In this document: positions 8,961 through 37,525 of the stretch, in pieces
How positions within the stretch are numbered: the stretch's first letter is position 1
Layout: each line of letters opens with the position of its first letter
Source: Pseudomonas denitrificans (nom. rej.)
Lineage (GTDB): Bacteria > Pseudomonadota > Gammaproteobacteria > Pseudomonadales > Pseudomonadaceae
Assembly (NCBI RefSeq): GCF_008807415.1
Contig: NZ_CP043626.1
Location: 310,001 to 374,000, forward strand
Reading direction: 5' to 3'
DNA length: 64,000 nt
The notes under the pieces: generated by a model
What the model was told of the DNA's origin: nothing
Databases searched by the model: none
What the model saw: only the letters and a program-made list of their open reading frames with translations
Made by a program: the position numbers and the translations under genes

Positions 8961-10152
8961 CGGACGGTTTCCGTTTACGGGTGAAGCGTTGCGCGTTGAG
9001 TTGTACCAGCAGCATGCACAGGGCGAGGCCGGCGAAGGTGATCAGCAGGCCGCCGCCAGGGCCGAACTCCTGCAACAGATTGAGCTTGGGATAGGGCAGG
9101 GCAAGGCTGGTGCCGAGCTGGTCCCAGTACACCGCGACCAGGGTGCCGCCGATGACGTTGCCGACGCCTACCACCCAGAAGTGCACCTGGCCTTCCATCG
9201 AGCGATACATCCAGCCCGTTTCGCAGCCGCCGGCCAGCACGATGCCGATGCCGAACAGCACACCACCGATCACGGCGTTCGGACCCATCCAGAAGATCTT
9301 CGGCGGCAGGCCGTTGTGGATCGCCGCGAAGGTGCCGACGCAGGCGGCCGCCATGCCCAGCAGGATACCCAGTGCGGCCTGGGTTCGGCCGGTGGTCCAG
9401 AGGTCACGGGCGGCGCTGGTGAAGCAGATCTGTGCGCGTTCGATCAGGCCGCCGAACAGCAGGCCGAACAGGCAGGCCATGCCCAGCACCAGCGAGACTT
9501 CGAAGCGCCAGGCAGCGAACAGCGCAGCGATCGCCAGCACGCCCATGCCCAGGCGCCATTGCAGCTTGGCACGGCGAGCGAGCGCTTCGGCAGTTGGCAG
9601 GGCGGCAGCCTTGCCGCCGACTTTGAGCGGAATGCGCAGGAAGGGCAGCAGGCTGATCTTCACGCCGAACCAGGCACCGATCACGGTGGAGAACATGAAG
9701 GCCCAGGCGTGCACGGAGAACATCGGGATGCCGGTGAAGAAGGCCGCCAGGTTGCAGCCCATCGCCAGGCGCGCGCCGAATCCGGCGATCACTCCGCCGA
9801 TCAGGCCCTGCAGCAGGCGGCGCTTGCTGGTCGGCCAGCGCAGGCTGACGTTGCCGGCCCAGAGCGCGCAGACCAGCGCGCCGAGGAACATGCCGATGAT
9901 CATCACGCCATCGATGCGGTCGAACGGCGTGCCTTGGAGGCCGATGATCTTGAAGTAGCTCCATTCCTGGGGCTGCAGGCCGAACCAGGACAGCACGTGG
10001 CCGCCCCAGCGGGTGAACTCGCCGGTGACTGCCCAGAAGGTGCCGGTCATGGCGAAGTAGTAGGCGGAGATGACGCCCAGGGCAACCAGGGTTGGCAGGG
10101 GCGACCAGAAGCGCAGCAGATAGCGCTCCCGGAAAGAAGATAGGGCTGACAT
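8926..10152 (-). CDS. yedE: YeeE/YedE-family sulfur transporter
   Basis: The 408-residue inner-membrane protein has about nine or ten hydrophobic segments and the two family cysteine/glycine signatures GARLAMGCNLAAFF and LAGGCETGWMYRSMEG. YeeE/YedE proteins import thiosulfate-type sulfur compounds; YedE has also been linked to selenium. The start ATG at 10152 has AAGGA upstream. It is followed directly by the overlapping yedF. Confidence 0.88.
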   Translation of the reverse strand: MSALSSFRERYLLRFWSPLPTLVALGVISAYYFAMTGTFWAVTGEFTRWGGHVLSWFGLQPQEWSYFKIIGLQGTPFDRIDGVMIIGMFLGALVCALWAGNVSLRWPTSKRRLLQGLIGGVIAGFGARLAMGCNLAAFFTGIPMFSVHAWAFMFSTVIGAWFGVKISLLPFLRIPLKVGGKAAALPTAEALARRAKLQWRLGMGVLAIAALFAAWRFEVSLVLGMACLFGLLFGGLIERAQICFTSAARDLWTTGRTQAALGILLGMAAACVGTFAAIHNGLPPKIFWMGPNAVIGGVLFGIGIVLAGGCETGWMYRSMEGQVHFWVVGVGNVIGGTLVAVYWDQLGTSLALPYPKLNLLQEFGPGGGLLITFAGLALCMLLVQLNAQRFTRKRKPSDARHQDADAVA

Positions 10153-18430: not shown

Positions 18431-18596
18431 CAGTGTGTGAGCGTTCAGCTTGAAGTGTCGCCAGCTTTGACGTCTATTTTTCTTATCTTGTTGTTTTGTA
18501 AGCATTTTATTTCAATGATGGGGCACTGGCGGTGGTGGATGCGCGGAAGTGTCCCAGTTGCCGCGTTCCGGCAGGCGGGTAATATCACTCCTGCGT

Positions 18597-18712
18597 ACAC
18601 GGAAAGGCGCAGGCCGGTAAGGATGTCGGTCAGGACCCACCGCAGGATGCGGTTCATCAGGATGATGAAGAAGGGAAGAAAGAGTGGGCGGGTTATCCCG
18701 CCCCTTTTTTTT
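18597..18712 (+). ncRNA. rsmZ: RsmZ regulatory RNA
   Basis: RsmZ sequesters the translational repressor RsmA/CsrA and so relays GacS/GacA signalling to virulence and biofilm genes. The stretch holds repeated GGA motifs shown in small hairpins (CGCAGGATGCG, CATCAGGATGATG) plus AAGGATG, TCAGGAC and AAGGGAAG. It ends in the terminator GGGCGGGTTATCCCGCCC with eight Ts. A TAATAT box at 18580-18585 suits a start near 18592-18597. The length of about 116 bases and the position between rpoS and fdxA agree with P. aeruginosa. The exact 5' end is inferred. Confidence 0.88.
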
Positions 18713-19180: not shown

Positions 19181-21781
19181 TCAGACCCGCATCTTCCATG
19201 CATATAACAATTCGAGAGCTTGACGCGGAGTCAGGTCATCGGGGCTGACACGCATCAGCTCTTCGACGATCGGGTGCGGCAGGCTGGCGAACAGGTCGCT
19301 TTGCAGTGGTGCCGGGCTTTTCGGGTCGCTCGAACGCGGTGCTTCATGGGGCAGGCTGGTGGTTTCCAGGCGCGACAGATGCTCGCGGGCGCGCTGAATT
19401 ACCGCGCCCGGTACACCGGCCAATTGTGCAACCGCAAGACCATAACTCTGGCTGGCGGGACCGGGCAGTACGTGGTGCAGGAACACGATGCGCTCGTTGT
19501 GTTCGGTGGCGTTCAGGTGAACGTTGGCCACCGCCGGTTCGCTTTCGGGCAGCACGGTCAGCTCGAAATAGTGCGTCGCGAACAGGGTAAAGGCGCGAAG
19601 TTTGGCCAGGTGTTCGGCGGCCGACCAGGCCAGCGACAGGCCGTCGAAGGTGCTGGTACCGCGGCCCACTTCGTCCATCAGCACCAGGCTGCGGTCGCTG
19701 GCGTTGTGCAGGATGTTCGCGGTTTCGCTCATCTCCACCATGAAGGTAGAGCGGCCACCGGCGAGGTCGTCGGAGGAGCCGATACGGGTGAAAATTCGGT
19801 CCACGAGGGACAGTTCACAACGCGCAGCCGGGACGAAACTGCCGATGTGCGCTAGCAGCACGATCAGCGCTGTTTGTCGCATATAGGTCGATTTACCGCC
19901 CATGTTCGGGCCGGTAATCACCAGCATGCGGGTGTCTTCGTCGAGGTTCAGGTCGTTGGCGACGAAGGGCGTATCCAGCACCTGCTCGACCACCGGGTGG
20001 CGGCCTTGCTCGATCAGGATGCCGGACTCTTCGACGAAGCGCGGGCGGTTCAGGTCGAGGTTCAGTGCACGCTCGGCGAGGTTGGACAGCACGTCCAGTT
20101 CGGCCAGGGCGGCAGCGGTGTCCTGCAGTGGCGCCAGTTGGCCGATCAGAAGTTCCAGCAGTTCTTCGTAGAGTTGCTTCTCGCGAGCCAGGGCACGGCT
20201 TTGAGCTGACAGCGCCTTGTCTTCGAAGGCCTTCAGTTCCGGCGTGATGAAGCGCTCGGCGCCTTTGAGGGTCTGGCGGCGGATGTAGTCGGCGGGTGCC
20301 TGTTCGGCCTGCACACGGGGCAGTTCGATGTAGTAGCCGTGGATGCGGTTGTAGCCGACCTTCAGGTTTGGCAGGCCGGTGCGGGCCTTCTCGCGAGTTT
20401 CCAGATCCATCAGGTACTGGCCGGCGTTCTCGCTGAGCATCTGCAGTTCGTCCAACTCGGCGTCGTAGCCGCGGGCGATGACGCCGCCGTCGCGGATCAC
20501 GGCCGGCGGGTTCTCGATCACTGCGCGGGCCAGCAGGTCGGCCAGTTCCGGGTAGGTGCGGATGCTGACGGCCAATTCGCCCAGGTGCGGGGCTTCCAGC
20601 TCGGTCATGCCACTCTGCAGTTGCGGCAGGGCGGCGAGGGCGTCGCGCAGGCGCGCGAGGTCGCGCGGGCGGGCGTTGCGCAGGCCGATTCGGGCGAGAA
20701 TTCGTTCAACGTCACCGATTTCCTTCAGCTGCGGCTGGAGGACTTCGAAGCGATAGCGTTCCAGCAGGCAGGCAATGGACTCCTGGCGAGCTTCGAGCAC
20801 GGCACGGTCGCGCAGCGGGCGGTTCAGCCAGCGGGTCAGCAGGCGGCTGCCCATGGCAGTCTGGCAACGGTCGACTACCGACTGCAGCGTGTTGTCGCGG
20901 CCGCCAGCGAGGTTGGTGTCCAGCTCCAGGTTGCGGCGGCTGGCGCCATCGAGGATCACGGTGTCGTCGATCCGCTCGTGACGCAGGCTGCGCAGGTGCG
21001 GCAAGGCGGTGCGCTGGGTTTCCTTGGCGTAGGTCAGCAGGCAGCCGGCCGCACCGATAGCCAGGGTGAGTTCCTGGCAGCCGAAGCCCTTGAGGTCCTG
21101 CACGCCGAACTGCTGGCACAGGCCCTTCTTCGCCGAGTCACGATCGAAGTCCCAGGGGGCGCGGCGGTGTGCGCCACGGCGCTTTTCCGCCGGCAGGCCC
21201 TGGGGCCAGTCGTCGGGGATCAGCAGCTCGGCGGGGTTCAGGCGCTCCAGTTCGGCCAGCAGGGTTTCCCAGCCTTTTATTTCCTGGACGTTGAAGCGGC
21301 CGCTGGTGATGTCCAGCACGGCCAGGCCGAACAGGCGCTCGTCGCCCAGCACGGCGGCGATCAGGTTGTCGCGGCGCTCGTCGAGCAGCGCTTCGTCGCT
21401 GACGGTGCCGGGGGTCAGGATGCGTACAACCTGGCGTTCAACCGGTCCCTTGCTGGTGGCCGGGTCGCCGATCTGTTCGCAGATCACCACCGATTCGCCG
21501 AGCTTCACCAGCTTGGCCAGGTAGCCTTCGGCGGAGTGGAAGGGAATGCCGGCCATGGGAATGGAGTTGCCGGCGGACTGGCCGCGTGCGGTCAGTGTGA
21601 TGTCCAGCAGTTTGGCGGCCTTCTTGGCGTCCTCGTAGAACAGCTCGTAGAAGTCGCCCATGCGGTAGAACATCAGTTGGTCCGGATGCTGGTTCTTCAG
21701 CCTCCAGTACTGCTGCATCATCGGAGTGTGAGCTGAGAGCCCGTCACCGCTGGGCTCTTCGAAGGTCTGTCTTTTTGACAT
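19181..21781 (-). CDS. mutS: DNA mismatch repair protein MutS (5' end altered at the prophage junction)
   Basis: MutS recognises base mismatches and starts methyl-directed or MutL-directed repair. Seen: the mismatch-binding [12 protein letters not shown] with the intercalating Phe, the Walker [26 protein letters not shown] and [10 protein letters not shown]. At 866 residues it is slightly longer than the roughly 855-860 usual in Pseudomonas. The excess is at the N terminus: [14 protein letters not shown] replaces the short M-x-D- that normally precedes [12 protein letters not shown]. The start ATG 21781 has no good ribosome binding site and lies 20 bases from the phage integrase stop. The only other in-frame starts are the two Met codons of TPMM. 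Confidence 0.95.
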
Positions 21782-21801: not shown

Positions 21802-22782
21802 TCAGCGAACTTTGGCAGGCATTGTCGGGGCCTGAGCGATCTTCGGCAACCGCCCGCGCAGGTATCGTGCGGTCATTCTTGGGTCAGAGTGGCCGCCGAG
21901 GGTCTGGGCATTCTTCCCTTCCCGGTCGGCATCGGTCAGCGACTTCGCGCGGATGTCGTGGATAGTCACGTCCTCGACGCCGGCTTGTTCCCTGGCTCTG
22001 GCAAATGCCTCCTTCATCGTGGCGTAGGAGACTGGGCGACCGGCGCGCGCACAGAACAGTGTCAGCGTGCGCACCTTACGGGGGAGGGCCTTCGCCTTGG
22101 CGATAACTTCCTCGAGGTCCGGTGTCATCGAAACGATGAGTTTCGACCCAGTCTTCTGCTGGGCGAAGGCGATGCCTTCCTCCGAGATATCGGAGAGGTG
22201 GATGCTGATCACGTCGCTGATCCGCTGTCCGGTCAGGTACGCCATTTCAAGGATGTTGCGGATATAGGGGCTGCAGGCATTAAGGATTGCTGCGAACTCC
22301 GCGTCCGTGATGTAGCGATCGCGGCGCGCCTCCTCATGCCGCTTGATGCCGATGCAGGGGTTGGAGTCGACCATTCCCCACTCCAGGGCGTAGCCGAACA
22401 CCACGCGGGCGAAGGAAAGAATCCGGTTGCACATGTTTGGGGTGCCGGCCAGGTCGACCTTCACTGCGGCTATGTGCTTTGGCAGAACCTGCTCCGGTTC
22501 GAACTCGGCGAAGATATCCTTCAGTCGGTCTGCCGCCTGCTCGTACTGAAGCACCGTGTTCGCGGCGAGTTTCTTGACCTTGATGTGATGCTTCAGCGCC
22601 TTGTCGATCAGCGCCGCCATCCCGCCAATGCACGCCTGGGAGGTCTTCCGGGCATACTCAAGCAGCGACGCCTGGTAATCCTCGCCCAGGCGCTCCCACT
22701 TCCCCTTCCTCACCAGGTAGTACGCGCCGTGCTTGTGGTACATGCACGCCGGCAGGTGACGGTCCTTCTTCCTCGGGCGCAT
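21802..22782 (-). CDS. int: Phage integrase, tyrosine recombinase
   Basis: Site-specific recombinase for prophage integration and excision. The 326-residue protein has the catalytic set R187 (GQRISD), H275 and R278 (HDIRAKS), H298 (GGHSDP) and the nucleophile Y307 (ARYLRG). An N-terminal SAM-like core-binding domain covers about residues 55-150. Its stop is 20 bases upstream of the mutS start, marking the prophage edge. The excisionase-like gene lies 10 bases upstream. Confidence 0.95.
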   Translation of the reverse strand: MRPRKKDRHLPACMYHKHGAYYLVRKGKWERLGEDYQASLLEYARKTSQACIGGMAALIDKALKHHIKVKKLAANTVLQYEQAADRLKDIFAEFEPEQVLPKHIAAVKVDLAGTPNMCNRILSFARVVFGYALEWGMVDSNPCIGIKRHEEARRDRYITDAEFAAILNACSPYIRNILEMAYLTGQRISDVISIHLSDISEEGIAFAQQKTGSKLIVSMTPDLEEVIAKAKALPRKVRTLTLFCARAGRPVSYATMKEAFARAREQAGVEDVTIHDIRAKSLTDADREGKNAQTLGGHSDPRMTARYLRGRLPKIAQAPTMPAKVR

Positions 22783-25523: not shown

Positions 25524-25965
25524 GGCGCACCTCCGCAGAACTTGTCCGCGACGTCCTTGATCGTCCGAGTCCGGAAAGTTATCTGGTTTTCGTTGGCAAT
25601 GCGGCGGGCGTAGTTGTAGGAGATGCCCATGGCCTTGGCGGAAGCCTGGATCGACATTCCATCCGCCGCCATCTTGCGAAGCTCTCGAGACTTCTGAACT
25701 CTGGTGAGCTGCGCTGCCTTCTTGTGACCCTCGATGGCCAGGCTCATGTCGCTACTGCGCGCCTGGGCCGATAGCTTCTTCTCGTGAGCCCGCCGCTCAG
25801 GGTGAGAGATGGCATGGTTGAAGGTGGGTGAGTCCTCGAAGCCAGATACCCCGTCAGGAATCTGTTGAATCTCGCCGCCGTGCGCCAAGAACTCTTCGAT
25901 TCGTCCAGCAATCTCCGCCCGGTTGATGTCCACCAGAGGAGTGGAGCGGTAGTCGATGGGGTCAT
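25520..25965 (-). CDS. Helix-turn-helix phage protein (frameshifted near its start)
   Basis: The C-terminal half holds a helix-turn-helix (MSIQASAKAMGISYNYARRI), so DNA binding is likely. The frame from VDINRAEIAG lacks a good start, but adding one base at the G run 25958-25961 joins it to ATG 25965, reading MTPIDYRSTPLVDINRAE. That ATG overlaps the exonuclease stop by four bases (ATGA), as neighbouring genes do, which supports the repaired frame of 148 residues. Confidence 0.75.
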
Positions 25966-26579
25966 GCTGCCACCCCCATGACGCGCTCCATGCGCTCTTC
26001 CATGATCTCGTAGAAGGTCTTCACCCGCTCGGAGATGGTCCGAATCATTGCCTCGTCGCGGTACATGCGCTTGATGAACAGCGGCATTCCGGGCCAGTAG
26101 CTGATGAAGTCGATCCACTCGCGATCGGAGACCCAAAGGCCACCTTGGCACTGGGCGATGTGCTCCTTCGGCACTTCGCCGGCGAGGATCACACTGACCT
26201 GGAACTTCGGGAGCTTGGTCTTGATCTCGTCCAGGCCTTTAGCACCAACGAGCGCATCAGGCGAATATCCGATGCCGTGGTTGAGGATGATTGCCACCTG
26301 CTCCAGTTCTGCACCGGTGCGGGCGACGTAGAGCTCGCGGGCTTTGCCCTCCAGTTCGTGGCCGCGCTCGGTGTGGCGGTTACCCTGGAACGGGTCGGCC
26401 GCCTCGCCGGTGATCCGCTCACCAATGAGCTGGTCCATGTAGCTGAAGGCGCCGGCGCCGAACCCAGCCTGCCCTTTACCGTTGACCAGAAGGCAGTCCA
26501 GCTCGCTGCAGGTGACGATGCCCAGGCGGAGGTTGAGCCATTCCTGGGAGCCTTGCTCGATGTCTCGAATGATTTGCAT
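25962..26579 (-). CDS. YqaJ-type phage exonuclease
   Basis: A lambda-exonuclease-fold (YqaJ) nuclease of 205 residues that would resect double-stranded ends for phage recombination. The active-site residues are D108 in GYSPDALVG and E118/K120 in DEIKTK; the N-terminal SQEWLNLRLG is typical. The gene lies 3 bases after the upstream partner, the usual pairing of exonuclease with an annealing or accessory protein. Confidence 0.88.
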   Translation of the reverse strand: MQIIRDIEQGSQEWLNLRLGIVTCSELDCLLVNGKGQAGFGAGAFSYMDQLIGERITGEAADPFQGNRHTERGHELEGKARELYVARTGAELEQVAIILNHGIGYSPDALVGAKGLDEIKTKLPKFQVSVILAGEVPKEHIAQCQGGLWVSDREWIDFISYWPGMPLFIKRMYRDEAMIRTISERVKTFYEIMEERMERVMGVAA

Positions 26580-29794: not shown

Positions 29795-30129
29795 GCTGCG
29801 CTCTCCTGGATGCACTGCTCGGCAAAGTCGTTGATGCCGGCGCGGAGGTGGTTTTCGTAGATGGCGGCAGCGAGTTCGTGATCGCCGCGACCCACTGCAA
29901 GCAGGCACTGGACGACGAAGCACTCGCGGCCAGGGTCGATGTCGCCAAGTTCTTCCATCAGACGATCAGCGAACCCAGGTGCATGCTTGATCGTTCCGCT
30001 AATTCGGAAGCCGAAGAAGGTCACGCCGTCGGCGTCGTTACCCTTGAGGAGCTGGCTGACCTGGGCGGTAAGCCACTCGCTCGACGCGACCTGGTGCTCC
30101 TCGATCCTGTGGTGCTGGATTGCGTTCAT
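29791..30129 (-). CDS. Phage hypothetical protein downstream of the DGR
   Basis: A 112-residue soluble protein (MNAIQHHRIEEHQVASSEWL). Its start overlaps the stop of the reverse transcriptase gene by four bases, so it is translated with the DGR genes. No motif was seen; whether it helps the DGR or is a plain phage gene is not known. Confidence 0.65.
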   Translation of the reverse strand: MNAIQHHRIEEHQVASSEWLTAQVSQLLKGNDADGVTFFGFRISGTIKHAPGFADRLMEELGDIDPGRECFVVQCLLAVGRGDHELAAAIYENHLRAGINDFAEQCIQESAA

Positions 30130-31220
30130 GACTTCCTCCTGGGAGGGAATGTCTTGGTCAGCGCGAAATCCACCGAGAAGCCCCTACGAAGCAGGGCGTT
30201 GGCGATTGCTGCGCGGTCTTTGTGGGAGTGGCTCGCCTGCCGAAACAGGCCGAGATAGCTATTGGAGATGGTGCGAAGCTCCTCATCTGGTGCCGCGGCG
30301 ATTCGGCGGTGAGCTTCTGCGACAGTTCGCTTTCGGGTGGTTCGCCGCCATGGCTTGATCACATGTCCGACAAAGTCGACACCGCGACCTACCGGCTGAA
30401 GGATCGTCTTGCTCGGGTTTAGCCTGGCGCCCAGTCTTGGGAGAAAGTCCTCAATCTTGGCAAGCCATGTGTTCAGTTGCTGCGGTGATTCGTGCAGCAG
30501 GAGGAAGTCGTCTACGTAGCGGATGTAGTGCTTTGCCCGCAGCTGGTGCTTTGCGAACTGGTCCAGGTCATTCAAGTAGATGTTCGCGAAGAACTGGCTG
30601 CTCAGGTTGCCTATGGGCAGTCCAAGGTGCGCAGCCTGCGCTGTCAGTCGCTTATGCTGCGGCACCTTGTTGAATAGGTGCCGTGGGCTGCGTACCTCGT
30701 AGTTGCTGCGCGGGTCATGCCAGAGAATCTGGAGCGCCAGGCTCATCCACCAAGGGTTAGTAATGAGGTGAGCCAGTTGCTTGGCAAGCACTCGCTTGTC
30801 GATAGCGACGAAGAAGTTCGCCAAGTCGCATTTGAGGTAGTGCGCCGGGCGGCTCCAGTTCTGCGTCACGCTGCGAATCTTGCGCTCCAGCCGCTCTGCG
30901 GCGTAAAGCGTGCCGCGGCCTGGGATGCATGCGCAGCTGTCGGCGATGAACTGGGCTTCGATGCCGGCGCCAACGTGGTTGTAGAGAAGGTGGTGGACGA
31001 TTCGATCTCTGAAGTCGGCCGCCCACACCTCTCGATGCTTTGGCCTTGTTACGACGAAGCAGATCGAACGCCCCGGGGCGTAACTCCCATCCTGCAGATC
31101 CTCGTAAAGGTCCAGCAGGTTTTCTTCCAGGCGCTCTGCGAACTTCATCGCGCTGGCTGTGTTGCTCTTGTGCCGGCGACAGTCGTAATAGGCCTGGACC
31201 AAATCTTCGAAAGGAAACAT
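30126..31220 (-). CDS. Diversity-generating retroelement reverse transcriptase
   Basis: The enzyme copies the template repeat RNA into cDNA with errors at adenines, which then replaces the variable repeats. The 364-residue protein has motif A CDLANFF (D132), the DGR-type GLPIGNLSSQ at residues 200-209 and the active site YVDD at 235-238. The SQ in the fourth motif, where other bacterial reverse transcriptases have QG-like residues, marks the DGR class. No maturase or retron-type extra domain is present. The ATG at 31220 is 11 bases from the template repeat and has only a weak AGG as ribosome site. Confidence 0.95.
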   Translation of the reverse strand: MFPFEDLVQAYYDCRRHKSNTASAMKFAERLEENLLDLYEDLQDGSYAPGRSICFVVTRPKHREVWAADFRDRIVHHLLYNHVGAGIEAQFIADSCACIPGRGTLYAAERLERKIRSVTQNWSRPAHYLKCDLANFFVAIDKRVLAKQLAHLITNPWWMSLALQILWHDPRSNYEVRSPRHLFNKVPQHKRLTAQAAHLGLPIGNLSSQFFANIYLNDLDQFAKHQLRAKHYIRYVDDFLLLHESPQQLNTWLAKIEDFLPRLGARLNPSKTILQPVGRGVDFVGHVIKPWRRTTRKRTVAEAHRRIAAAPDEELRTISNSYLGLFRQASHSHKDRAAIANALLRRGFSVDFALTKTFPPRRKS

Positions 31221-31231
31221 CGCAACACCTG

Positions 31232-31335
31232 ATTCTGCGGACCGGGCGAACTCGGAAGTCGTTGTTCTTGTCGTTGTTGTTCGTCCAGCCGTCGTTGAAG
31301 TTCACGTTGAAGGCGTTGTTGGCGGAGTACTGCGA
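31232..31335 (-). repeat. DGR template repeat (TR)
   Basis: About 104 bases on the minus strand, between avd and the reverse transcriptase. It is nearly identical to the 3' ends of the two target genes. On the minus strand it is a chain of AAC-type codons (translated: FNVNFNDGWTNNND), so most adenines fall in the first two codon positions. The 3' part (TTCGCCCGGTCCGC) is shared unchanged with both targets and is the likely initiation-of-homing sequence. It is not itself a target gene. Confidence 0.95.
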
Positions 31336-31492
31336 CCTGCCTTGCTATCTACGTCGCCCAGCCGATTGCTCAGCCGGGCAACTGCGCCGGACCGCTTCAG
31401 TCGTTCCTGATGGTTTCCGTGGTGCGCATGGCGGTGCCCAGTCGGGCAGCGGCAAGACCAGATTCAGCGCACAGGAATGGAGGCCGTAGCCT

Positions 31493-31849
31493 TCACCCAA
31501 CGGGCGCGGTTGCGAATTTTCCTTTCCAGGCGTTTGCCTGTTTGCCTATGGAGGCAGTTAGCTGCATCGCCGAGGCGTGTTGCTTGAGGCTAATGAAGCG
31601 CTTATTGGCTAGAGCGCGGAGCAGGTAATTCACCATCCAAATGCTTTCGAGCAGTTGGTTGAGATGAGCCACCTTGTCCTTCGCCATGTTGGCTCTGCCG
31701 ATCAGGACAAGAACCTGCAGAGCCTCATCACGAAGCCTCGACCCAACCACTTGCTTCAGGTCCCTGGGAATATTGCGGACCAGATCAAGAGTGAGTCCTA
31801 GAAGTTCTTCGGCTGTCTTGTGGATCGAGAGCTGTGTGTGAAGGGCCAT
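31493..31849 (-). CDS. avd: DGR accessory variability protein (Avd-like)
   Basis: A 118-residue, fully helical, positively charged protein (LLGLTLDLVRNIPRDLKQVV ... SIWMVNYLLRALANKRFISL) of the size and pattern of the bacterial Avd four-helix bundle. Avd forms a pentamer that binds the reverse transcriptase and template RNA. GGGAGG precedes the ATG. The order target-avd-TR-RT is the standard DGR layout. The 157 bases between avd and the TR probably belong to the template RNA 5' flank. Confidence 0.88.
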   Translation of the reverse strand: MALHTQLSIHKTAEELLGLTLDLVRNIPRDLKQVVGSRLRDEALQVLVLIGRANMAKDKVAHLNQLLESIWMVNYLLRALANKRFISLKQHASAMQLTASIGKQANAWKGKFATAPVG

Positions 31850-31885
31850 CCTGGCCTCCCTGTCGTTCCCTATTGAATGATTGAA

Positions 31886-32470
31886 TTAACGAAGAATTCT
31901 GCGGACCGGGCGAACTCGGAAGCCGTCGTACTTGGCGAGGGTGTCCGTCCAGCCGTTGCTGAAGCTCACGCTGAAGGCGGTGCCGGCGGAGTACTGCGTG
32001 CTGCTCCAGTGGTAGCCCTCGGAGAATGCTTCCGGAACGTTTGCCCAGGCGAGCATCAGTTCAGCCTGAGCCGGCAGATAGAAGTCGGTGTGGTCGCCGA
32101 TGGTGAAGCTGGCGGCGAATTCCGCTGCGGGGTGGTCGCCTTCCTCGATGAGCGCCTTGGTGTTGGCGAGGCCATCCCACTTGCTGGTTGCCGTGGACTT
32201 GCTGCCGTAGCCGCCCCATTGGAGTTCGCCATCGCTTTCCGCTGGGGCGATGATCAGGTGGTAATCAGGGTGGCCGTCACGACCCCGCATGAGGCCCGCG
32301 TAGATTCCGCCTTGGCCGGGCCATTCAGTGCCGATTGCGGGGACGCCATTGATCTCCGATGGCTCTGCGACCTGAGGTTCTTCGCTGATCAACCGGAGCA
32401 CTACTGCGGCGAACTGCGGGTTGTCGGTGGTGAAGCTGGTGCTTCCTGCATTAACGGTGACAGTGGTCAT
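31886..32470 (-). CDS. DGR target protein 1 (DUF1566-like)
   Basis: A 194-residue protein starting MTTVTVNAGSTSFTTDNPQF; the ATG at 32470 follows CAGGAG. The C-terminal domain reads YHWSSTQYSAGTAFSVSF then FRVRPVRRIL, the C-type-lectin-like DUF1566 pattern used by many DGR targets. Residues about 158-191 are the variable repeat. No signal peptide or membrane segment is visible, so cytoplasmic or virion location are both possible. The ligand is unknown. Confidence 0.9.
   Translation of the reverse strand: MTTVTVNAGSTSFTTDNPQFAAVVLRLISEEPQVAEPSEINGVPAIGTEWPGQGGIYAGLMRGRDGHPDYHLIIAPAESDGELQWGGYGSKSTATSKWDGLANTKALIEEGDHPAAEFAASFTIGDHTDFYLPAQAELMLAWANVPEAFSEGYHWSSTQYSAGTAFSVSFSNGWTDTLAKYDGFRVRPVRRILR
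31896..31998 (-). repeat. DGR variable repeat 1 (VR1)
   Basis: Aligned without gaps to the TR over 103 bases, VR1 has 15 differences. On the coding strand 14 of them are at TR adenines and one is at a TR guanine (complement of plus position 31293). The shared 3' block runs to AGAAT, five codons before the stop. Changed residues include TR Asn to Gly, Thr, Ser, Leu, Tyr and Asp. Confidence 0.95.
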
Positions 32471-32587
32471 GCTGACTCCTGAAGAAAAGGGCAGGCGGCC
32501 GGCGCTACTCGGCAAGCTTCTGGTCTGGCTCGTCGGTGGGTTACGGCCCCGCGAATCGCCTGCGAGAAAAAGGAATGAAGGAATGGA

Positions 32588-33070
32588 TCACTGAAGGATG
32601 AGAATCTTGCGGACCGGGCGAACTCGGAAGGCGGTGCTCTTGCCGTCGCTGGTCGGCCAGCCGTAGCGGAAGTGCACGAGGAAGGCGTCGTGGGCGGAGG
32701 ACTGCGAACTCGACCAGTACCAGCGATCCTGGAAGCCGCCGATCTCGCTGGCCTGCTTCGCTGCGTACAGGCCTGCCAGTTCCAGGGCGGAGGGGATGAA
32801 GACGCCTTCGCCCAGCTCCATGGCTTGCTTGGCGATGGGGCTGCCAGCTTCGACCATGGCAACGGTGTTTGCGGCACCATCGCGATAGCTGGTTGCGCCT
32901 TCCACGTCCTGGTCGTACTCGCCCCACTCACCGACGAATTCGCGCTCGGCGCCCAGATCAATCAGGGCGTACTCGGAGCCATTCAGCCAGTAGTGGTAAG
33001 CGAAGATGCCGTCAGCCAGTGCTTGGCCTATGGCGGGGAGTTCTGCTGCTTTGATGGTGGTGATGGTCAT
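32588..33070 (-). CDS. DGR target protein 2 (DUF1566-like)
   Basis: A 160-residue protein starting MTITTIKAAELPAIGQALAD with AAGGA upstream. Its C-terminal half has the same lectin-like signature (YWSSSQSSAHDAFLVHF ... FRVRPVRKI) with the variable repeat at about residues 122-155. The N-terminal half differs from target 1, so the two proteins share only the diversified domain. It is the first DGR gene in the leftward operon. Confidence 0.9.
   Translation of the reverse strand: MTITTIKAAELPAIGQALADGIFAYHYWLNGSEYALIDLGAEREFVGEWGEYDQDVEGATSYRDGAANTVAMVEAGSPIAKQAMELGEGVFIPSALELAGLYAAKQASEIGGFQDRWYWSSSQSSAHDAFLVHFRYGWPTSDGKSTAFRVRPVRKILILQ
32604..32707 (-). repeat. DGR variable repeat 2 (VR2)
   Basis: Over the 100 bases 32608-32707 against TR 31236-31335 there are 17 differences: 16 at TR adenines (coding strand) and one at the same TR guanine that differs in VR1. 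Most changed sites differ from those of VR1, so the two repeats were diversified separately. The shared 3' block is intact up to CCGCA. Confidence 0.95.
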
Positions 33071-36742: not shown

Positions 36743-37525
36743 TTACAGATCGCCGCCTCGCCAGATCACTTGGCCGATGACGTCGAATCGTTGTCCTTCT
36801 TCGTCTGTGAAGGGCATATCTCGATGAGCCCTGACTGTCTTATCGGAGTTGTCGCTCCGAAGTAGCCAGGAATCACCTTCCTTTACCGCGCGCTTCACTA
36901 TGGTCTCGCCCTCCTTGTTCAGGAAGGCAAAAACCCTGTCGTTCTTAAGCGAATTAGAGCCTTTGTCTACAAGAAGCGCATCCCACTCATGAATCGTCGG
37001 CTCCATGCTGCGACCAGACGCGAAAATTGCAGCAAGGTTGTGAACCTTCAGCCCCTTTCGCTTGATCCATGACTTCTTGAACGCAAGCGTGCCGCGCACT
37101 TCAACATGAGGGTTCTCTTCGCCATGGCCGGCTGCTGCCTTGGCGTCGAGTTGCTGGATGTAGACGTGAACCTCGTCCTCTGTGATAGAGGGCTCGTTCG
37201 CAGCTGGCCCGGTAGGGATCGATGTCTTCGGATGCTCTAACCCTGGGCTGAGCTTCTCCAACTCTGCAGCGAGAGTTGGACTGAACTCGGCGACGGGCAC
37301 CTTGAGCATCCTGGCGAATACAGAAGCGGCCTTGAGGCTCAGGGCTGTTCGTTTGTTCATGAAGTGGCTCACCGCTCCCTGGGTGACGCCATCACCGAGC
37401 TCGGCTGCGATCATTTCCTGAGTGAGCTTCAGATCGCCTTTCCTCTGCTGGAAAAGCGCCTTCAGGCGGTCGCTGTCTGCGATCTGCCAGTCAGTTAGGG
37501 GGAGTCTTCGGGAGTTCTTGGCCAT
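36743..37525 (-). CDS. cI: CI-like prophage repressor, LexA/S24 type
   Basis: The 260-residue repressor keeps the prophage silent. The N-terminal helix-turn-helix is in MIAAELGDGVTQGAVSHFMN. A likely self-cleavage pair Ala132-Gly133 (AAAGHGE) leads to the S24 peptidase domain with Ser173 in GRSMEPT and Lys211 in ETIVKRAV. Self-cleavage after RecA activation, hence induction by DNA damage, follows from the family. Its promoter PRM lies within the right operators. It heads an operon of five further genes. Confidence 0.92.
   Translation of the reverse strand: MAKNSRRLPLTDWQIADSDRLKALFQQRKGDLKLTQEMIAAELGDGVTQGAVSHFMNKRTALSLKAASVFARMLKVPVAEFSPTLAAELEKLSPGLEHPKTSIPTGPAANEPSITEDEVHVYIQQLDAKAAAGHGEENPHVEVRGTLAFKKSWIKRKGLKVHNLAAIFASGRSMEPTIHEWDALLVDKGSNSLKNDRVFAFLNKEGETIVKRAVKEGDSWLLRSDNSDKTVRAHRDMPFTDEEGQRFDVIGQVIWRGGDL

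Follow-up and report, generated by a model that had tools for sequence, protein, structure and literature searches.

The mechanism of diversity-generating retroelements (DGRs) is known mainly from the Bordetella phage BPP-1, and the locus described here raises the question of whether a DGR carried by a Pseudomonas prophage is built and works in the same way. We analysed a stretch of 64,000 nucleotides (nt) from Pseudomonas denitrificans (nom. rej.) (assembly GCF_008807415.1, contig NZ_CP043626.1, positions 310,001 to 374,000), referred to as the window, whose numbering is used for its features. The window contains a complete DGR in a prophage, lying on the minus strand with all its parts and transcribed in the order target 2, target 1, avd, template repeat (TR), reverse transcriptase (RT). 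An initial annotation had also called the DGR complete, which held, and had assumed that it works like that of BPP-1, which did not: the structured RNA is found 5' rather than 3' of TR, and the variable repeats (VRs) are followed by different DNA. This structured RNA, located between avd and TR and matching the Rfam family RT-15, is the feature that the annotation had missed. We consider it likely that the cassette represents a distinct prophage DGR lineage with a closed template RNA and early lectin-fold targets. As a DGR it is ordinary in kind and unusual in RNA topology, target-site DNA and choice of target.

The RT gene (30126..31220) encodes 364 amino acids (aa) with the sequences GLPIGNLSSQ and YVDD; GxxxSQ and YxDD are motifs of DGR-type RTs. 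The protein belongs to the PHROG reverse transcriptase family (PHROG 1423, 1e-115), and its best solved structure by sequence was 8ub7, 'Reverse transcriptase' (9.5e-37), which we take to be BPP-1 bRT. It is not of the retron type, as the NCBIfam retron model reached 41.7 bits against a cut-off of 235. The product of avd (118 aa; 31493..31849), an accessory protein that many but not all DGRs have, matched Pfam bAvd (5e-15) and the PHROG 'Avd protein of DGR' (2e-26), while the NCBIfam Avd model scored 53.9 bits, under its cut-off of 80. TR (31232..31340), A-rich with AAC codons, recurs near the ends of the two target genes as VR1 (31896..32004; 84% identity to TR) and VR2 (32604..32712; 80%). 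The repeats agree in a shared 3' block (initiation of mutagenic homing, IMH, and its TR counterpart IMH*) up to CCGCA, in VR1 up to CCGCAGAAT, and diverge after it. No matches to TR besides TR, VR1 and VR2 were found in the 6.88-Mb genome at E <= 0.001, and thus no further host VRs. The frames of RT, avd and both targets are open. Membership of the cassette among DGRs is secure, and the initial annotation had been right about its RT motifs, its Avd-like protein, its single TR with two target genes ending in near-copies, and the gene order on one strand.

Within a fixed 98-nt core that holds 29 A, VR1 of the window differs from TR at 14 A, 1 G and 1 T, and VR2 at 16 A and 1 G. A first set of 43 loci, window included, showed TR adjoining RT and at least one VR in 43/43. 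Counting 76 of 81 distinct ungapped TR/VR pairs (37 loci), 983 of 1037 differences fell at A (A to G 490, A to T 333, A to C 160); A makes up 2317 of the 7664 template positions. In a second set of 65 new viral contigs, 64 of them usable (L080 is cut at the contig edge), TR again adjoined RT with at least one VR in 64/64 loci, and 1682 of 1828 differences were at A (130 distinct ungapped pairs from 64 loci, none set aside). Four of these pairs fell under 70% A (L083, L091 and L114 twice). Pairs with gaps were left uncounted (one in L031/L045), as were own-genome duplicates (L001-L003, L047), L034, whose RT is truncated by the contig end, and L037, L038 and L046, where the match is limited to the last 43 RT residues. 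The RT match of L035 is confined to residues 2-247 and diverges beyond. Note that at least 574 viral stretches encode a relative of this RT, of which the best 80 were kept per search; the layout is known for those examined.

The five first-set pairs set aside came from three loci. In the viral contig L014 (two pairs), TR (9881-9989) has been overwritten by a copy of VR1: its core equals VR1 save for 2 edge differences, disagrees with VR2 at 4 A and 13 non-A sites, and retains 14 A in 98 nt against 30-31 in close relatives. The DGR of L014 has exhausted its own template. The other three are distal pairs, with A shares of 14/33 and 19/40 in L018 and 19/35 in L041. The L018 VRs, at -1525 and -2040 from RT, match the present TR poorly with many non-A differences, as if the template had been exchanged. 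A third adenine-directed VR lies ~3-9 kb from the cassette in L026, L027, L030, L031, L039, L053 and L056, and one TR therefore serves three genes there.

Turnover of the VRs was evident from closely related cassettes. In L004 and L012, the first 1060 nt of RT diverge by 0.0%, and the 100-nt TR core is identical. Their VR1 copies differ at 21/31 template-A sites and 0/69 others, and their VR2 copies at 17/31 and 1/69. Thus, the outcome that the initial annotation had named as refuting, VRs that stay constant or differ away from template adenines, was not observed: the VRs vary at template A, with TR constant. Because the two loci have the same RT and TR and VR1 has diverged at A sites alone, the lineage is, as judged by sequence comparison, active in nature. 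The window and L011 have the TR core in common and differ at 18/29 A sites in VR1 and 17/29 in VR2, against 2/71 other sites in each. These changes need not be recent, because the stretch from avd through the RNA is 17% different between the two (ungapped comparison). In the stretches compared, L019 and L020 differ at a single A site of VR1, and L015 and L017, both prophages under the same source genome number, are identical.

The pattern of changes depended on the codon. Across the 76 VRs, AAC codons were often changed (first A 466/664, second A 311/664), A was rarely changed in CAG (0/134), AAG (1/71 and 0/71), AGG (0/28) and GAG (1/60), and no in-frame stop occurred in the VR cores. These residues may be maintained by selection, or the RT may leave A unchanged when G follows. 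Selection is favoured, since the first A of AAG is spared as well; the BPP-1 RT is described as context-dependent (PMC12875486). With stops counted as an option, the window TR could encode ~6e17 variants over 19 codons. At one G of the window TR, VR1 reads A and VR2 reads T, which would fit a template that formerly held A at this site or an RT error at G.

We turned to the RNA between avd and TR. RT-15 (Rfam RF03018) matched the window over its full length with 158.4 bits (gathering score 82) at 31333..31509. By Rfam and alignment it consists of helices P1 and P2 and three arms, lies 5' of TR and overlaps the 3' end of avd; the Rfam match stops at the start of TR, so that TR and the two long-range helices described below, P0 and a1:a2, fall outside it. 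RT-15 was present in 7/7 divergent clade members scanned, and the record of phage Cruim01 already carries the annotation. Phage U9, without RT at this place, has no RT-15. Under stricter filters, the window's own genome was the only one of 369 of the class to contain RT-15, which is therefore rare among the sampled species. Towards RT, the TR/VR match ends 6-29 nt ahead of the RT alignment start (first set). Alignment of RT-15 from 28 of the 43 loci, hand-chosen and used for all RNA alignments, gave a consensus energy of -62 kcal/mol, with kept two-sided changes in 25/52 pairs.

Helix P0 is formed by element E (CTGAATCTG; 31459..31467), of the GAAUCUG type and just 5' of P2, and the complementary IMH*-like 3' end of TR (CAGAATCAG; 31229..31237), of the CAGAUUC type, with one A-A mismatch in the window. 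The 5' RNA together with P0 comprises 61 pairs, with 95.3% of cells paired and two-sided changes in 29 pairs, and 0/500 shuffles were as good on any of five measures. P0 alone had 88.1% of cells paired, compared to 24-44% in slid registers, and 0/500 shuffles were as good on three of the five measures. One of its pairs occurs as GC in 16, AU in 8, CG in 3 and UA in 1 of the loci (28/28); in the new set this position is paired in 60/61 rows, and the E motif is absent in 3/64 loci. The outer stem a1:a2 pairs the end of avd (a1, 31509..31515) with the start of RT (a2, 31220..31226, ending on the first base of the start codon). In pairing tests its energy averaged -8.22 kcal/mol with the own-locus partner and -6.46 with swapped partners in the first set (26 distinct), and -6.85 and -5.04 in the new set (36 distinct); 0/20000 permutations were as good in either set. 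The layout is nested: a1 and a2 enclose P1 and a second unit, in which E and the 3' end of TR enclose the P2 domain and TR.

Several observations weigh against a closed RNA of this form. Shuffles matched P0 on two measures (two-sided pairs 112/500, further pair types 258/500). Folded alone, the window RNA gives P0 a probability of ~0.002, and the window helix contains the mismatch. E:TR is the longest perfect complement in just 5/12 loci examined, and in the new set its pairing against swapped partners was unclear (1888/20000 as good; 18 similar combinations). Likewise, a1:a2 is poorly formed or missing in L041, L053, L055, L056 and L032 of the first set and lies above -6 kcal/mol in 4/36 new loci, and the swap and shuffle tests of both helices are uncorrected for relatedness. 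Our overall confidence is slightly lower because the two P0 measures and the longest-complement count fail to single out P0.

These comparisons suggest the following mechanism. The transcript from avd to RT would fold closed in the order a1, P1, E, the P2 multibranch domain (RT-15), TR, the TR 3' end and a2. The 3' end of the template would be held against the 5' structured domain by P0 and a1:a2. RT and Avd may dock on this domain, where priming of the cDNA could also take place; an internal 2'-OH, the primer used by retrons, is a possible start. Reverse transcription would then proceed through TR, making errors at adenines, until P2 stopped it at the 5' edge of TR. The mutated cDNA would then replace the C-terminal VR of either small protein with the putative C-type lectin fold. 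Expressed early, these proteins may vary a binding surface against an intracellular partner, a host or competitor protein, rather than serve as tail fibres.

The properties of the targets bear on this last step. Target 1 (194 aa; 31886..32470) and target 2 (160 aa; 32588..33070) resemble Pfam Lcl_C, with scores under the cut-off for both (25.7 and 26.9 vs 34.9 bits). Neither target 1 nor Avd has a sequence relative of solved structure. The model of target 1 (mean predicted local distance difference test score 88; five models, range 78 to 88) was closest to the C-terminal domain of Legionella Lcl (8q4e, E 3.4e-5), and target 1 is, as modelled, a C-type lectin fold whose variable residues 163-183 lie on the last strands and loops. 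By eye, with no predictor used, the targets have no signal peptide, membrane stretch or tail domain, and PADLOC matched neither as a known defence gene. The DGR occupies the leftward arm of the prophage, between an S24-type repressor (36743-37525) and a recombination exonuclease (25962-26579). The opposite strand encodes CII, O, DnaB, terminase, portal, capsid and tape measure. The cassette also lies near repressor, recombination, DNA methylase or integrase genes in 6/6 annotated clade members fetched (Haboob, phPA-G, Cruim01, LPPA56, Shewanella QDWS and Burkholderia Magia; SC_8 is unannotated there). Thus, the earlier description of the targets as early-arm, non-tail proteins of the DUF1566 type extends to these six phages.

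Relatives of the targets occur as single genes in the corresponding arm of phages D3 (orf68) and PMG1 and as two genes in U7 and U9, with no RT in the 6-13 kb fetched for these four. In Medea1 there are two DUF1566 genes, and the 10.6 kb fetched contain no annotated RT. A shorter relative is encoded by jumbo phages, Paride among them. The target family therefore also lives without the diversifier. PAN70 likewise has a relative of the target gene without RT in the stretch fetched. According to PMC6642488, DGRs are more frequent in Pseudomonas and DUF1566 is a common target domain, and PMC3521204 lists a two-VR DGR for P. fluorescens WH6.

It is conceivable, though unlikely, that the targets are receptor-binding or virion proteins (or a cell coat released by lysis) and that their early position is incidental. 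The phage structural neighbours of target 1 include tail-like proteins, and in a survey the phage DGR targets of RT clades 1, 4 and 6 are mostly annotated as tail proteins (PMC8144416), a pattern outside which an early-arm target falls. However, the targets are only 160-194 aa long with no recognised tail-attachment domain, their genes are placed between repressor and recombination genes on the strand opposite to the head and tail genes, and this placement recurs in the six annotated clade members and with the single relatives in D3 and PMG1. Binding of the targets to an intracellular partner is the interpretation we infer; a point that counts against it is that nothing supports it beyond where the genes lie and the absence of any recognisable signal or tail domain. 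If correct, it raises the question of which variable intracellular partner of early, apparently cytoplasmic proteins merits hypermutation, host defence proteins or rival phages being candidates.

A second alternative concerns the RNA. It could be BPP-1-like, with the primer and docking site 3' of TR inside the RT gene, and RT-15 would then stop RT, shield the RNA or control expression of avd and RT. We regard this as quite unlikely. The window gave no match to Rfam Phage_DGR, and no structured spacer of the BPP-1 type was found between TR and RT. The first 200 nt of RT fold with -3.4 kcal/mol and show 0 compensatory changes in 13 predicted pairs (20 loci), and synonymous identity near the RT 5' end is about average (1.07-1.24 in the first 60 codons vs 1.14 overall; 30 RTs). 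Covariation and both long-range helices, in contrast, involve the 5' element. What speaks for a site within RT, and thus against our preferred model, is that the first 150 nt fold more stably than their codon-shuffled versions (mean z -1.72; 16 loci) and form the strongest of six segments in this respect, whereas the RT-15 region reached a mean z of only -1.07, in a different, simpler shuffle. There is also precedent for a 5' stop element, as a motif in the 3' end of BPP-1 avd terminates reverse transcription according to PMC12875486. With two of the three tests against it and one, fold stability, mildly for it, a spacer hidden in the RT gene was rejected.

The DNA downstream of the VRs was distinctive. 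ATTC-like stretches with a period of 4 nt follow VR1 directly (31871..31898, 7 units) and are found 3' of VR2 (32569..32600, 8 units). The word [AC]TT[CTG]A was present in all 72 distinct 55-nt VR flanks (mean 2.74, compared to 0.54 after TR and 0.41 in shuffles), and successive words were spaced by multiples of 4 in 119/125 cases. Self-match of the VR flanks at lag 4 was 0.444 vs 0.277 when shuffled and 0.185 after TR, and the periodicity recurred in 101 new flanks (0.475 vs 0.293). Runs of at least 5 ATTC-like units occurred in 51/71 VR flanks, 0/27 TR flanks and 21/710 shuffles; 18/71 VR flanks had only 1-3 units.

A GC-rich hairpin 4-34 bp after VR is proposed as a conserved requirement in PMC3240598. 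No GC hairpin (stem of at least 6) was found within 110 nt of either VR of the window, so that the target site there is not of the BPP-1 type in this respect; VR1 is followed by a 5-bp A/T-rich inverted repeat. In the subclade of the window the GC hairpin is missing in 14/15 flanks, L004 and L012 included, and L011 has one at 88 nt. Across the clade, 32/72 VR flanks contain a GC hairpin (6.8% in shuffles; 110-nt scan), in 25/32 at 28-36 nt downstream. The idea of a clade-wide loss of the hairpin, from a 57-nt scan of 17 loci, was dropped upon this longer scan. That the window copy is a decayed cassette with retrohoming lost is very improbable: TR differs from both VRs at the shared G and the VRs are without the hairpin, but no reading frame of RT, avd or the targets is interrupted, the RNA scores well, hairpin-less relatives show adenine-only turnover between near-identical cassettes, and the differences from L011, with the TR core in common, are focused on A.

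With BPP-1 (mtd-avd-TR-brt) the cassette has in common the RT class, Avd, a single TR, adenine-directed VR differences and the order target-avd-TR-RT. The BPP-1 target has a lectin fold, like target 1 as modelled. In BPP-1, however, TR directly follows avd, and between TR and brt lies a structured spacer of 144 nt (Rfam Phage_DGR), whereas in the window the structured RNA is 5' of TR, TR is beside RT, and RT is 30% identical. A GC hairpin after VR and a tail target in BPP-1 contrast with the ATTC-like stretch and the early, non-tail targets of the window. Burkholderia phage Magia and Pseudomonas phages Haboob, phPA-G and Cruim01 belong to the same clade and share with the window the layout and the early-arm position. 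In the Magia record, Avd and two potential DGR targets with a lectin fold are already labelled; on RNA architecture the four records are silent beyond the RT-15 label of Cruim01.

Outside the clade we examined 12 hand-chosen DGRs of 64 phage records with RT identity below 60%. In nine (BPP-1, VP58.5, BalMu-1, ACA1, Bise, YPCBV-1, phiARM81mr, Lagaffe and Dulem virus 37), TR begins 0-35 nt after avd and lies ~113-181 nt from the RT start, taken from the annotation or, if the annotated frame runs into TR, from the beginning of the RT alignment. In BalMu-1 (L061, 3304-3447), the 3' spacer is occupied by Rfam RT-14, which suggests that RT-14 and Phage_DGR are interchangeable kinds of 3' spacer and that RT-15 is a 5' counterpart. 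In contrast, Bacteroides phages F2 and F4 and the contig MT836212 (RT ~35%) have TR ~30 nt from RT, with one VR found. Their 5' spacer contains a complement to the TR 3' flank of 8 nt in F2 and F4 (0.07 in shuffles) and 9 nt in MT836212 (0.02). F2 and F4 are not independent, because they have the same sequence there, and F2 had no RT-15 match at the gathering score. From their layout and complementarity, the inside-out arrangement may extend beyond the clade.

As in the retron msr-msd RNA, described in part in PMC8867640, the structured portion is 5', the template 3', and the ends are closed by a stem. The differences are that the window RT is not of the retron type, that no multicopy DNA is known and that the template homes into target genes; 'retron-like' thus refers to layout alone. 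We give about even chances to the broader proposition of a widespread phage DGR lineage with an inside-out, retron-like RNA, whose 5' primer and docking domain grips the template 3' end through two helices, with target DNA that is tetranucleotide-periodic and not cruciform, and with early intracellular targets instead of tail fibres. If so, template RNA design, priming and target recognition would follow broader rules than thought, DGRs and retrons would have a common, testable topology, and RT-15 would gain a function as the 5' domain of a DGR template RNA. A literature search, with subscription papers, supplements and preprints outside its scope, returned no mention of 'RT-15 RNA', 'RT-15 motif' or 'RF03018', and none at the level of titles and abstract beginnings on this RNA layout or on early-operon Pseudomonas DGRs; we claim no priority.

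The prophage extends from an integrase (21802-22782) to past the window end; its far side carries endolysin-like and SRAP-like genes, followed by cinA- and recA-like genes (named by eye). Upstream of the prophage, an Rfam match to RsmZ was observed at 18592-18711. The adjacent host genes look like mutS (19181-21781, by size and place only) and cinA-recA (by eye; L051, ~6.9-8.6 kb).

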